In this document: in pieces, positions 3,173-10,239 of the stretch
How the letters are laid out: every line of letters starts with the position of its first letter
Position numbering within the stretch: position 1 is the stretch's first letter
DNA from: a virus
Reading direction: 5' to 3' (one strand)
DNA length: 22,756 nucleotides
Virus record (IMG/VR): IMGVR_UViG_3300042010_000043
Location: 1 to 22,756 of that record
Made by a program: the position numbers and the translations under genes
Notes under the pieces: generated by a model
What the model was told of the DNA's origin: nothing
Seen by the model: only the letters and a program-made list of their open reading frames with translations
Database searches by the model: none

Positions 3173-3482
3173 CTTTGTCACCCATCTGTGTAGGATCATA
3201 GTCATTCATACTGTAACCCTTCTCTTCAAGAGAGAACCTAAGGTGACAGTAAGGTCCACGAATTGTAGTTTCATCGTATCTACCGCGAGCGGCTCTAGCA
3301 GTGGACTTCGATCTTGGGACATATCTAACCCAAAGTGATTGGGAGCCATCAGGCCAATTCTTCACTCTTGATACTTCGAACCTTTGGGAAAACATCAGAC
3401 CGTTTATATTTTGCCTATTGATCCGCCCCGGTTGATCCGATCTACTCTCAATACAACGAACAATATCCCCAACATGAAACAT
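3159..3482 (-). CDS. 107-aa SH3-like protein with the shared DDDI tail
   Basis: Begins MFHVGDIVRCIES, a barrel-like start similar to the proteins at 1368-1634 and 2798-3172. The middle is Arg-rich (SKSTARAARGRYDETT), and the end DYDPTQMGDKDDDI is the tail shared by three proteins of this strand. I place the start at the ATG at 3482, six bases after a GGGA ribosome-binding site and one base after the stop of the tiny membrane gene upstream. A TTG four codons earlier is possible. The basic middle with the acidic tail could bind nucleic acid or mimic DNA, but that is conjecture. Confidence 0.78.
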   Translation of the reverse strand: MFHVGDIVRCIESRSDQPGRINRQNINGLMFSQRFEVSRVKNWPDGSQSLWVRYVPRSKSTARAARGRYDETTIRGPYCHLRFSLEEKGYSMNDYDPTQMGDKDDDI

Positions 3483-4503: not shown

Positions 4504-4935
4504 TCAGTAGCTACGGGAACCCCGCTCACCACCGTTGCCTTTTGTCCCATGATTTCCACCACCTTGTCCAGGATTGGAATCGTCATCATGGTCATCATCG
4601 TTGCCATGCCCATTGTCGTCATGGTCGCACTTTCCCTTACAACCTGGGTCCGTAGGGTCTACGGGATCAACTGGATCAGCAGGGTCCGTGTCTACGGGTT
4701 CAGTGGGAGTTGTGGTGGGTGCAGGAGAGGGGGACTGTGATGAATGGCTGGCTGGACTTCGTTCCGGCCTTGATTGATCTTCATTGCATCGTGAGGAACC
4801 AAATCCCCAAATGTCAGTCGTATTGTTCCCGCATGAATAGTCCTTTGCATCGGCAGGATAGACAAAGAACAAGGTCATCATGACCAAAGCCATAGCCGTG
4901 AGAAGGTAGGCAAAGAAACTCGTATTGCTACGCAT
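4504..4935 (-). CDS. 143-aa secreted Asp/His/Gly-rich protein
   Basis: An exported protein of unknown function. Residues 1-30 are a signal peptide with a basic start, a hydrophobic core and a likely cut after PADA. The mature part has four cysteines (35, 50, 99, 103). A Ser/Pro/Thr linker with repeated PVDP units (about 60-97) leads to an Asp/His-rich stretch (CDHDDNGHGNDDDHDDD, 103-119) likely to bind divalent metal, and a Gly-rich end GSRSY. I chose ATG 4935, with GGGG six bases upstream and a matching promoter at 5039-5067; the open frame upstream to 5067 would start inside the promoter. It could act in the periplasm or be displayed outside the cell. Confidence 0.8.
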   Translation of the reverse strand: MRSNTSFFAYLLTAMALVMMTLFFVYPADAKDYSCGNNTTDIWGFGSSRCNEDQSRPERSPASHSSQSPSPAPTTTPTEPVDTDPADPVDPVDPTDPGCKGKCDHDDNGHGNDDDHDDDSNPGQGGGNHGTKGNGGERGSRSY

Positions 4936-5038
4936 AGTAAGCCCCATTTGTTGTTGTTGTGAAAGAGAAGGTCCTCCCCGACAAGGATTTGCTAAGACAC
5001 AGTTATACAGATGTAGTCCTAGCGGCATTCGGGGAGGT

Positions 5039-5067
5039 ATTATAGGCAAAATTATGCCTCTAGCCAA
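5039..5067 (-). promoter_or_regulatory. Leftward sigma-70 promoter for the secreted-protein gene
   Basis: On the - strand, TTGGCT (5067-5062), exactly 17 bases, then TATAAT (5044-5039). The -10 is perfect and the -35 matches four of six. Transcription would start near 5032, about 100 bases before the ATG at 4935. It partly overlaps the stem-loop at 5056-5087. Confidence 0.6.
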
Positions 5068-6042: not shown

Positions 6043-6167
6043 TAGAACCCCTTTCTTTTCCTTTCTCCCTTTTCAACTTGTTGGCAGAACGAAAGCACAA
6101 TGCCAGCAACGATAACGAAAAGGACCATTACGATTAGCGAATAGTCGGCGGCGTGATGGATAGACAT
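6042..6167 (-). CDS. 41-aa single-pass membrane protein
   Basis: ATG 6167 has AAGGGG upstream (leader AGGGGTTCTGTA); TAA at 6042-6044 overlaps the next ATG. One helix spans about residues 9-28 (YSLIVMVLFVIVAGIVLSFC), followed by a strongly basic tail (EKGERKRKGF), so the C-terminus should face the cytoplasm. The layout copies that of the 51-aa protein at 5375-5530: leader, one helix, charged tail. Unknown function. Confidence 0.72.
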   Translation of the reverse strand: MSIHHAADYSLIVMVLFVIVAGIVLSFCQQVEKGERKRKGF

Positions 6168-6810: not shown

Positions 6811-7569
6811 TCAAGCCGATTTCGCGACGGACTTGCGCGCCGTGGGCGTTTCAGCCTTCTTGGGCTCTTCATTGGTGTTGTCAGCGACCAAGTGAAGCAT
6901 CGGACGATATTCCTTGGGAACGTCCGTCACCTTGACGGAAGCCGGGATGATTTGGACAGCCGTAACAGGCTTGCCATCGACCATAACGCCATGCTTGAAG
7001 ACAAGTTCGGTAAGATCGTTCAGCAATTCACGGGAAATCTTGACATCCCCCTTGAGCGCGGTAGACCAGAAGGACTTGACGACACCCAGAAGCTTCTGGT
7101 CAGCATCGAACTGGACCGGTGCCCGTTCAGGCTGGAACTTGAACCAAGGTTGTTCTTCCGCTTTCGCGATGATCTTGGTCTGAAGCTCTTCCGGCTTCTT
7201 CTGGAACCGTTCCTTCTTGTTGACGGTGTAGTACCATGCGAAGACTTCTCCACTTTCATCCCGCCGGCCGAACTTGTTGTTGTCGTTCAGGGAACCATCG
7301 GCCTTGATTGCCGAATTGGCTTCCTTATTGAAGGTGACGTTGGCGAAAACCTGGATGAAATTGTGCATTGCGTTGATACGCGCACCCGTTCCCTTGACAC
7401 GGGAAAAGAACTGGTTGAGGCGAGTGGGATTGCGATGCAGTTCAATGTGAGCGACTTCCGAAAGGAGATAGATTGCAATCCGTTCATCCGTGTTACGAAT
7501 GTCGTTCGCAAGTTCCTTGCCGGTCTTAGCAAGTTCTGCTGCATCGGTGATAAGATTGTACTTAGCCAT
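6811..7569 (-). CDS. 252-aa conserved phage protein, first gene of the leftward transcript
   Basis: A soluble protein: a helical N-terminal half (TDAAELAKTGKELANDIR; IAIYLLSEVAHIELHRN), a middle with ARINAMHNFIQVFANVTFNK, an aromatic stretch PWFKFQPERAP, and a disordered basic tail (EEPKKAETPTARKSVAKSA). I recall related uncharacterised proteins (helix, 'NAL..W...FG...FNK', 'W..F.PE') widespread in podoviruses; no function is known. The start at 7569 has AGGAGA nine bases upstream. Codons end in C or G far more than in neighbouring genes, as in the capsid gene, which suggests high expression. It is the first coding gene after the leftward promoter at 9326-9354. Confidence 0.85.
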   Translation of the reverse strand: MAKYNLITDAAELAKTGKELANDIRNTDERIAIYLLSEVAHIELHRNPTRLNQFFSRVKGTGARINAMHNFIQVFANVTFNKEANSAIKADGSLNDNNKFGRRDESGEVFAWYYTVNKKERFQKKPEELQTKIIAKAEEQPWFKFQPERAPVQFDADQKLLGVVKSFWSTALKGDVKISRELLNDLTELVFKHGVMVDGKPVTAVQIIPASVKVTDVPKEYRPMLHLVADNTNEEPKKAETPTARKSVAKSA

Positions 7570-7619
7570 TTGGATTTTCTCCTATTGAGATACTACCTAC
7601 TAGGGTAACGTATCGAGAC

Positions 7620-7715
7620 GATGCACTATTGCATCAATAACCACTAGCTTACATCTTAAGGGATACTAGACGCTCGTAGCGTTGTTTCTCTAAAACCTTA
7701 AGGCGCTAGTGGTTA
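7620..7715 (-). repeat. Tandem stem-loops just upstream of the 252-aa gene
   Basis: GATGCA-ctat-TGCATC (7620-7635) is followed by a long composite hairpin: an outer 11-bp stem (7638-7648/7705-7715), a middle 7-bp stem CTTAAGG/CCTTAAG (7655-7661/7696-7702) and an inner ACGCT/AGCGT (7670-7682). No U-tract follows on the - strand, so it is probably part of the leader rather than a terminator. Confidence 0.6.
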
Positions 7716-7741
7716 GAATTACAATAGTCTTACCCAATAAC

Positions 7742-7768
7742 TACCGAACAACTTTGCCCTATTCGGTA
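7742..7768. repeat. Inverted repeat TACCGAA/TTCGGTA
   Basis: Seven-base perfect arms (7742-7748 and 7762-7768) with a 13-base spacer, beside a duplicated TATAAT-like sequence (7795-7809, + strand) that lacks a -35. It could be an operator or another hairpin of the leader. Confidence 0.4.
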
Positions 7769-9325
7769 ATTCACCATTTGCCCCACTATTTTGATATAAT
7801 CTCTATAATGGATAAATTTTATACTTTCTTCACAACGTTTAGTCACTTGCTGCTAGGTTTTGTCAGAACCCCACAAGTGCTAATCTCACAGTCAAGACTT
7901 CCGAAAACCACAAGTACCCTAGCGATAGGAAGACGCTTCAAGAACGCCGCTAGTTTCGACCGTAGCAGTTAGTTCTAACGCCTATTCTTCATTCCCCTTG
8001 GATTAGGAGATATCCTTTGGATACAGGAGGTTTGCATAATCAACACAATCCCTATGCTCTACGTGCATCCCTGAGAGGGAGAGAGGTAAGACTGACAAGG
8101 GCTGAATTGAGAACGCCTTGAGTTGTGTGTGTACGATGGATATTAGGACCGACAATTAGTAACTGTCATTTGCGACAAGGAACCCAGCCCATTAACACTG
8201 GACTTGATTTCTCTGGGGCCTATCGTTTCCGATTGTTACCCGTCCGCTTTTAACCCCTAGCTTGCTTTCGCTATCCATCCTAACACTCCCTTGGCAGAGA
8301 GGCGGATTAGCAGGTAGGACATATACCAGTCCTATTCGATGCATCGCCCGGAAAGGATATCGACCTTACTTAGCCCCTGTATGCCGGAAGAAACCCGAAT
8401 GGAGCATTTCAGATAGACAACCAATTGGGGCTATCACCTAGCACTTATTTGCCGTGTTCCCGTTGGGGACTAAATGGCCGGTTCTTTGAAAACCGTGGTT
8501 CACTTCTGAGCGGGAACCATTGCCCTATGCGCGGGGCTATTTCGCTCACATTACAACCCAAGAGAAATTCTTGGGGAACTTTAGAGCTAGAGAGAAAACC
8601 CTTGGCTAGCAATGGAACGAACCATTTGTCTCTCTAGCCCAATCCCTTGCGGGAAACTCAAGACCTTCCAAAAGGGGAAGGCAATTCTGTAGGGGAGATT
8701 TGAGCAATAGGAGCAACAAGTGCTACAACCATTGGAAAGGTTCACCCCTGAACCTAAAGAGTTGGCTAGCGTCCGATCACTGGGTAGACCGTCAACCATA
8801 CTAGCTAGCCACTAGCCCAACCTCCCGGCGTTGGCCCGTGTCGAAAGGTCAAACTGTCAGCTTGCCTATCTCTCTTGTCTTGCGCCTTCAGGTCCTGCCT
8901 TCCCGCGCTACCTTGGTTTTATTAGCCCCGGCATTCCGGCACCCTTACCAAGTTCAAGAGGCTTAAGGACGTTGCCCGTTTGCCTTTCGACAATGCCCAT
9001 TAACACCCAGAATAAGGCAGAATTAAGGCAGAATATGACCATTTTGTCTTTTTCTCCACAATCGAAATTCCCCAATGTTTTCTCGTGTAGCGCGGGTGCT
9101 GATATCCCCTTGGAAATCCCCATATCGCCACAAGGAAGGCCATACAGCGAGATTGCAGATTGTTCCAAGGCAATTCCCTAGCTCTAGCCGATCGGACTTC
9201 CTACGGTCTTCTGTTGTCTCCAGGTACATCAACAAAACTGACAACCTATGCACCATTAATGAATAATCCTTGGTCATATGCATTTACAACTCTAGTCTAG
9301 TTGCATTCCTCTCATTACAACCAAT

Positions 9326-9354
9326 AGTATACTACAAACCCTAGGTTGTGTCAA
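9326..9354 (-). promoter_or_regulatory. Strong leftward sigma-70 promoter
   Basis: On the - strand, TTGACA (9354-9349), exactly 17 bases, then TATACT (9331-9326): a perfect -35 and a five-of-six -10. Start of transcription is expected near 9319. It would drive the structured block and the leftward genes using host RNA polymerase. Confidence 0.8.
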
Positions 9355-9444
9355 CTAATCAGAAGTTGTAGGAAAGTATTCCTATCCTTGGGATTATATT
9401 CCTATGCCTGGAAGAAAAGAATCCTATCTCTTCCTTTTCTTTCC

Positions 9445-9768
9445 TTCAAGAATAGTTGTACTTCAATGTTGGTCCTTCAAGTACATACAAGTAGTATTAT
9501 ACTTCAAGTATAGTTCTCCAGGTATAAACAATACTCTATTCAAGTATTACTCAAGTATATCTATCTGGATGATTATCCCCTCATCTATCCAATACTTCAA
9601 GTATACTTCAAGGCCTGCCTTCAGTAGGGTCGGGCAGGCCCAGGGGAGGGGGTACCTATTGTTGTATACACTTTCGATATATTTTCCAATAGTTTAGCTG
9701 TAAAATTACCTTCAGTTTTCTTCAAGTAAATCTTCAAGTACTGTCAAAGTCATAGTACTTCAAGTATA
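9445..9768. repeat. Array of palindromic TACTTCAAGTA sites
   Basis: At least ten full or partial copies of TACTTCAAGTA, an odd-centred palindrome: 9445, 9459, 9473-9483, 9498-9512 (15-bp perfect TATACTTCAAGTATA), 9538-9547, 9548-9559 (one T missing), 9592-9604 overlapping 9602-9613, 9719-9728, 9731-9741 and 9756-9766. Further TTCAAG copies continue at 10036-10110 and inverted at 10170-10180. The array lies between two divergent promoters. Such clusters are typical of initiator iterons or of operators for a dimeric regulator. Confidence 0.8.
9612..9640. repeat. GC-rich stem-loop inside the palindrome array
   Basis: GGCCTGCC (9612-9619) pairs perfectly with GGCAGGCC (9633-9640) around 13 bases. 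It stands out in AT-rich DNA and is followed by a G-rich run, CAGGGGAGGGGG (9641-9652). There is no U-tract on either side. It could be an origin structure, a bidirectional barrier or an unusual terminator. Confidence 0.6.
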
Positions 9769-9870
9769 GGCCCGGAAGAACTATACTTACAGGATAGTAC
9801 TTTTGAGAGTAAAATTAGTAGAAAACTTAAGAATATTTCACTTTTATACTACTTTTCTTCCAATACCCTA

Positions 9871-9899
9871 TTGACAACACTTTAGAAAAATGGTATAAT
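9871..9899 (+). promoter_or_regulatory. Perfect-consensus rightward sigma-70 promoter
   Basis: TTGACA (9871-9876), 17 bases, TATAAT (9894-9899): both hexamers and the spacing are ideal. Transcription should begin near 9906 and run into the packaging and capsid genes after a leader of about 330 bases. Confidence 0.85.
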
Positions 9900-9905
9900 T
9901 AAATC

Positions 9906-10239
9906 AGTAGTAAAAGAAACAAGTAAAACTCTGTACTGCTTGAACTAACACCTACCTATGAGAACTAGGTTGACTGTGCTTGGTTCATTTGCAGTGTATC
10001 TCTGAACTACTTTGAGATTTTTGATTTAATTCTTGTTCAAGTGTCACTGAACACTGGTAAGTTCTTCAAGCTGAATGCTTCAAGCGTAACATACTGCTTT
10101 GATCTTCAAGTTCAGAAGTCGAAGTAGCTAATGTTCACGCTGTAGGAATTCAGCTACTTCTTCGCTTCGCTTGAAGTACTCCCGCTGAATAGGGACGTTA
10201 AGCTAAAATAATTTTTAATGAATAAATAGGTGTCAACTT
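9906..10239 (+). promoter_or_regulatory. Long 5' leader of the rightward operon
   Basis: No gene is visible in these 334 bases. They hold a 9-bp stem-loop, GAAGTAGCT (10121-10129) with AGCTACTTC (10152-10160), and further TTCAAG sites (10036, 10065, 10079, 10105; inverted at 10170). The leader ends with the ribosome site AGGTG seven bases before the ATG at 10240. It may host binding of the same regulator as the upstream array. Confidence 0.5.

Follow-up and report, generated by a model that had tools for sequence, protein, structure and literature searches.

A predicted giant structured RNA conserved beside the terminase genes of phiM6-like soil phages

Genes and signals at the locus

The window analysed here, by which we mean the whole 22.8-kb virus record IMGVR_UViG_3300042010_000043 of IMG/VR, carries small leftward genes in its left part and rightward terS (10240), terL (10945), portal, and capsid genes. 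One of the leftward ORFs (4504-5067, minus strand, start coordinate uncertain) contains a TDPADPVDPVDPTDP stretch and a Gly/His/Asp-rich tail. According to TerL, the nearest annotated relatives are the Rhizobium phages RHph_N3_19, N3_13, and I3_11 (76-77% identical), which have Rhizobium phaseoli as their host. TerL of Sinorhizobium phage phiM6, a terrestrial phage of Sinorhizobium meliloti 1021 that belongs to the marine podovirus group HMO-2011 (PMC6256558), is 67% identical. TerL is uninterrupted in the window and in N3_19; in N3_13 and I3_11 it is split by a group I intron on the minus strand (RF00028, 60.7 bits; L007:3815-4032 and L008:4074-4291), and the deposited annotation lists the parts as separate ORFs.

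Between the leftward gene for a 252-aa protein and terS, the window holds 2670 bases without a conserved gene. The same flanks, a leftward phrog_1448 gene and a rightward terS, enclose the block in the three Rhizobium phages, phiM6, and several IMG/VR contigs, and a syntenic ORF-less block of 2.3-3.4 kb is found in the window, N3_19, N3_13, I3_11, phiM6, and the loci L024, L005, L009, L010, L015, and L154, with a comparable gap of 2.3-2.9 kb in the last four. The block of phiM6 is only about 44% identical overall. A sequence-only reading of the window had described positions 7600-9320 as lacking a credible gene and as higher in GC than the AT-rich DNA on the right, and both descriptions are borne out. 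No reading frame of the block is conserved over its full length among the relatives; the tblastn matches are short and scattered over frames of both strands, and thus mirror DNA conservation. GC content is 0.42-0.52 across most of the block versus 0.35-0.36 at 9251-10000, to the right of the promoter, and the layout and the GC step recur in six relatives (N3_19, N3_13, I3_11, L024, phiM6, and L005).

The near-consensus leftward promoter that the same reading had placed at the right edge of the block matches the consensus at 11 of 12 positions, with a predicted start near 9319, and this claim holds because the promoter is kept in relatives. At least nine phages (the window, N3_19, N3_13, I3_11, L024, phiM6, L014, L009, and L154) have a TTGACA/TATAAT-like promoter with 17-18-nt spacing in the equivalent location, and L005 has a plausible counterpart. 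TACAAC motifs precede the -35 element of these promoters and often occur within the spacer as well. The distance from the predicted start to the ATG of the left gene is 1.4-1.9 kb in those relatives whose sequence covers both ends. Neither an intrinsic terminator nor a second strong promoter was found between the block and the leftward gene in the window, so a single transcript probably covers both.

The 252-aa protein of this left gene has a predicted structure (moderate confidence) that matched nothing in the PDB and contained no recognised RNA-binding fold. Fold comparison returned only uncharacterised proteins of other podoviruses (Pseudomonas tf, Ralstonia RSB3, Caulobacter Percy/Lullwater, and Rhizobium Paso), which marks it as a widespread podovirus protein, and a search of bacterial genomes returned zero relatives. 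The features of the locus are collected in Table 1.

Table 1. Features of the predicted RNA and its surroundings (window positions unless a locus is named)
Feature	Position	Strand	Description
Leftward promoter	9326..9354	-	-35 TTGACA 9354-9349, -10 TATACT 9331-9326, 17-nt spacer, 11/12 consensus
Predicted giant structured RNA	7620..9319	-	About 1.7 kb; syntenic, ORF-less, conserved; both ends predicted
Mosaic 5' part of the RNA	8848..9319	-	Poorly conserved, weak structural signal
Inserted stem domain	8586..8638	-	Window-specific; gap in relatives' alignments
Covarying core	8244..8445	-	202 nt, 53 predicted pairs, 10 helices, invariant hairpin loop, AGC-GAAA-GC hairpin
Hairpin UAGGAC-UGGUAUAU-GUCCUA	8313..8332	-	Compensatory changes between the sisters N3_13 and I3_11
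3'-terminal pseudoknot	7620..7728	-	PKa 7728-7723; P1 7715-7705 with 7648-7638; hairpin 7635-7620, loop pairs with PKa
GGUAGUAU element	7590..7597	-	Between pseudoknot and ribosome-binding site of left gene; kept in most relatives
First gene downstream of the RNA	6811..7569	-	252 aa, phrog_1448, function unassigned
Type B module	L002 ~6065-6130, L004 ~6075-6140, L015 ~3330-3390, L010 2663-2725		Upstream of left gene

Conserved structure on the minus strand

Folding of single sequences is unremarkable at this locus. In 300-nt windows the minus strand of the block gives z-scores of -0.9 to -2.1, no better than neighbouring coding DNA, so the block does not stand out in energy, and the comparison with shuffled sequence that the sequence-only reading had named as grounds for rejection would have misled here. 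The alignment of five relatives behaves differently. Judged against column-shuffled alignments, RNAalifold on the minus strand reaches z-scores of -4.5 in the 3' domain and between -5.0 and -8.0 in windows of the core, and in most windows the minus-strand alignment folds more strongly than the plus-strand alignment. Folding energy alone would dismiss the block, and it is covariation among a few relatives that settles the question. The evidence base is five close sequences and a few distant ones, of which five to seven are informative and two are near-sisters.

The strongest signal comes from the covarying core. Across five phages, 26 of its 53 pairs show two-sided compensatory changes and 93.2% of cells are paired; shuffled alignments give 10.5 +/- 2.3 such pairs (none of 500 as high), and sliding the partner by one to three columns leaves 3-8. 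Covariation among relatives, which the sequence-only reading had proposed as a check, is thus present. Even the sisters N3_13 and I3_11 differ in compensatory fashion in one hairpin, GGAC..GUCC against GAAC..GUUC. Within the core structure, 30 cells are G.U and three are A.C, which fits a minus-strand RNA. When each strand is folded on its own, the ratio of G.U to A.C is 32:6 for the minus strand and 25:11 for the plus strand, with energies of -115 and -95, respectively; each such fold is biased toward its own strand, and the tendency toward G.U is nevertheless the same.

A covariance model of the core (R1) detects phiM6 at L089 1038-1261 with an E-value of 1.7e-4 over 347 kb, the next match having an E-value of 0.49 (these values are rough), and relative to the left gene the match sits where the core does in the other phages, on the same strand. 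With phiM6 added, 35 of the 53 pairs show two-sided change; since the model itself guided the alignment of the added sequence, this count is supportive rather than independent, whereas the detection itself is independent. phiM6 keeps the GAAA loop of the AGC-GAAA-GC hairpin on a different stem, AUA-GAAA-UAU, and L009 retains the UAAUCC..GGAUGGA motif together with a GNRA-capped hairpin, CCAUA-GUAA-UAUGG, where the others have GAAA. Neither the core model nor its updated version gave a convincing match in L005, L010, L011, L014, L015, or L154, which indicates that the core has diverged there beyond the reach of the model; a match in L011 (E 0.06) is not claimed. These contigs are linked to the window by the 3' pseudoknot (L005, L010, and L154) or by synteny and promoter only. 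A scan for the 11-nt GAAA-receptor motif gave nothing consistent. Scans of IMG/VR for the invariant motifs returned mostly unrelated contigs among the matches listed, of which only L110 (the contig of L024) and L180 (the contig of L005) carry the element; the matches in L198, L206, and L223 resemble coding sequence or chance.

At its predicted 3' end the RNA would close with a pseudoknot, present in nine phages (the window, N3_19, N3_13, I3_11, L024, phiM6, L005, L010, and L154). Its order is PKa, GYA and a short joint, P1, UU or UA, and a hairpin whose AAUNN loop pairs with PKa. The joints AUUGYA and AU(U/A)GRUGYAAU are kept, while the sequence of the P1 helix is replaced in L024, phiM6, L005, L010, and L154, so that P1 starts with UAACCACUA, UAACCCUAG, UAAAUCCUG, UCUUGUCAC or UGAUUGCAU, each with a matching partner. 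The pseudoknot pairs also vary jointly: CUAUU/AAUAG, GAAUU/AAUUC, and, with one mismatch, GCAUU/AAUGG. In a manually built alignment of the helix segments, from which the loops had been taken out, 30 cells are changed on both sides versus 9.1 in shuffles. Because the helices were located via complementarity, the percentage paired is partly a product of construction; what counts in this sequence evidence is that joints and position are fixed and that the motif is rare in shuffled DNA, where a strict descriptor is matched 0.2 times per 22.7 kb. N3_19, I3_11, L010, and L154 lack the closing hairpin or have it in altered form. Upstream of the left gene, N3_19, I3_11, L010, and L015 carry a second pseudoknot module (type B), whose joints differ and whose layout is PKa, a short joint with ACU.U, a helix, and AGGGC AA.... 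GCCC. In N3_19 and I3_11, an ORF cassette and module B separate the first module (A, the end of the RNA) from the left gene.

Conservation is uneven along the RNA, which is predicted to measure 1.3-1.7 kb in the relatives. The well-conserved portion of the block spans about 7628-8847, and the alignable reach from the window extends to 8847 in N3_19, 8716 in N3_13, and 8562 in L024, with patches beyond. Within it, the middle region (7800-8240) is conserved with a less certain predicted structure. The right-hand 450 bp or so, where the RNA would start, are mosaic: some hairpins are common to two phages, others are unique to one, and the structural signal near the promoter is weak. These alignment limits and the weak 5' signal divide the RNA into two parts: its 3' two-thirds are conserved and its 5' third is mosaic. 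Many of the stems that the sequence-only reading had listed are genuine. The stem at 8371-8433 falls within the strongly covarying core and that at 8761-8821 is common to the window and N3_19, whereas the inserted stem domain of Table 1 is absent from the relatives and is thus a window-specific insertion; the energies of single sequences lend the stems no support.

Known RNA families, DNA elements, and coding remnants

The setting of the block, an ORF-less stretch of phage DNA behind a strong promoter, resembles that of known large RNAs, and a diverged member of such a family or of a ribozyme class (GOLLD, ROOL, OLE, group I or II intron, or raiA) might share its conserved 3' and variable 5' parts, as described for GOLLD (PMC12286853). 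Yet Rfam at the gathering threshold gave zero matches in the window and in the loci of 11 relatives, except for a distant tRNA, although the same search recovers the group I intron in TerL of N3_13 and I3_11 and therefore works on such material. The covariance models of GOLLD, ROOL, and OLE remained unmatched in the window and relatives, as did the Intron_gpI and group II models, and the block sits between genes and interrupts none; at E<=5, only two meaningless microRNA matches appeared. GOLLD, ROOL, OLE, and introns are thus excluded at that sensitivity, in agreement with the sequence-only reading, which had recognised no conserved motif of the GOLLD or ROOL classes, and we consider a diverged member of a known family highly improbable. 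No tRNA genes were found in the window, phiM6 has none (PMC6256558), and the single tRNA of L154 lies several kb past the start of the left gene. A tRNA-like reading was considered and rejected.

In kind, the predicted RNA can be compared with several known RNAs. GOLLD is a giant RNA of phages and prophages, often >800 nt, whose 3' part is well conserved and 5' part less so, and ROOL is a large, ornate, pseudoknotted, phage-encoded RNA whose role is unsolved (PMC12286853). The predicted RNA resembles GOLLD in being a large, ORF-less phage RNA with extensive covarying stems and the same gradient of conservation, and differs from it in lacking an Rfam match and tRNA genes in the window, in its approximately twofold length, and in heading a leftward operon beside the terminase genes. 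With ROOL it shares size, ornate structure, phage origin, and a pseudoknot; the lack of an Rfam match, the different setting and length, and the window without tRNA genes set it apart. RNA-seq revealed an abundant ORF-less transcript of about 800 nt in phage ICP1 (PMC7567579) and abundant ORF-less lncRNAs in phage K (PMC9241854). In these virulent phages, too, about 1 kb is devoted to sequence without ORFs, there a dominant transcript; unlike theirs, transcription of our block is predicted, and the likeness is one of kind rather than a structural comparison. A search of the open literature found no description of such an RNA.

The block might instead be origin, packaging, or regulatory DNA whose inverted repeats mimic RNA stems. 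PhageTerm placed the pac cut of phiM6 at its position 1 (PMC6256558), about 600 bp before terS, where a conserved G-rich segment is found that corresponds to window positions of approximately 9620-9700, and the AT-rich stretch 9460-9770 holds many CTTCAAGTA repeats. The block itself contains none of these pac-like and repeat signals, which lie beyond the promoter on its right side, whereas inside the block the multi-branched helices covary individually, departures favour G.U over A.C, the minus strand folds more strongly, and the invariant parts are loops and joints; a DNA element is thus a very improbable, if slightly better placed, alternative to a known family. Least probable of all is a remnant of, or divergent, protein-coding DNA. 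Short ORFs of 40-116 aa occur on both strands of the block and small ORFs are occasionally annotated there in relatives, but the relatives show indels of every length and stops, and no frame is conserved through.

The DNA to the right of the promoter has features of its own. Eight CTTCAAGTA-type repeats (9475-9770 and 10104-10179) lie in the AT-rich region between the divergent promoters, with similar repeats in relatives; a regulator of the phage or an initiator of its replication might bind them. The rightward promoter at 9871 matches the consensus at 12 of 12 positions and lies outside the RNA. The G-rich segment GGGGAGGGGGTACC..GTTGTATACAC matches sequence just downstream of the predicted pac cut of phiM6, making it a candidate pac region.

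A free-standing RNA or a leader of the leftward operon

A block without a conserved gene whose RNA shape persists while its letters change points to a previously undescribed giant RNA and not to empty DNA. Judged from comparative sequence analysis, it is almost certain that the minus strand of the block specifies a real structured RNA that has been conserved. The suggestion of the sequence-only reading that a giant phage RNA, possibly of a new class, lies here is supported by the covarying structure, the conserved leftward promoter, and the absence from Rfam; the tools used cannot separate such an RNA from a long leader. As the best explanation, and a reasonably probable one, we propose a new class of giant phage RNA that would form the first 1.3-1.7 kb of the leftward transcript and act in its own right. 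Transcription would run leftward from the conserved promoter to the pseudoknot and would continue into the leftward operon, with the phrog_1448 gene first. The RNA part may be released or end near the pseudoknot. Produced in infected cells as a large folded molecule with its conserved 3' two-thirds and an exchangeable 5' third, it could then work in trans, and in kind it would be similar to GOLLD and ROOL as well as to the abundant transcripts without ORFs of ICP1 and phage K. We lean slightly toward action mainly in its own right because of the size, the domain complexity, the invariant unpaired joints, and the ORF cassette in two phages.

The main alternative is a giant cis-acting leader (5' UTR) that would control translation, stability, or transcription of the leftward operon, for example by antitermination. 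The leader of T4 gene 32 is an autogenous pseudoknot leader, and by analogy the pseudoknot just upstream of the ribosome-binding site of the left gene would be the control element. In both cases a phage gene is preceded, at a distance of a few tens of bases, by a pseudoknot; here, unlike in T4, the pseudoknot ends a structured RNA of 1.3-1.7 kb, and the protein encoded downstream is not recognised as one that binds single strands. The leader reading stays strong because no terminator intervenes and because ten phages have a pseudoknot ahead of the left gene, mostly no more than about 120 bases from its start, of type A (the window, N3_13, L024, phiM6, L154, and L005) or type B (N3_19, I3_11, L010, and L015). 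RNA and left gene are also co-directional, with no second strong promoter between them, and GGUAGUA stands directly before the ribosome-binding site in most phages. On the other hand, a length of 1.3-1.7 kb with many independent domains goes far beyond the needs of known leaders, the 252-aa protein lacks a recognised RNA-binding fold, and in N3_19 and I3_11 the left gene is separated from the RNA by an ORF cassette, which argues against dedicated control of that gene. We therefore consider a leader rather unlikely, while ranking it well above the DNA, coding, and known-family alternatives.

Returning to an RNA that acts in its own right, we suggest, more tentatively, that phiM6-like soil phages may produce, in the course of infection, a new class of RNA machine that stands alone, measures 1.3-1.7 kb, and combines a fixed 3' body and pseudoknot with an exchangeable 5' part, possibly as an RNA-only complex or a catalyst. 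To our knowledge, giant structured RNAs of bacteria and phages number no more than a handful and have unsolved roles, and two of these RNAs have recently been reported to form RNA cages. If the proposal is true, this would be an independent class of about twice the length of known giant RNAs, and the machine would be one of the longest structured non-coding RNAs yet known apart from those of ribosomes. Since the phages were isolated on tractable hosts, the transcript, its structure, and the phenotype of a deletion are directly testable.
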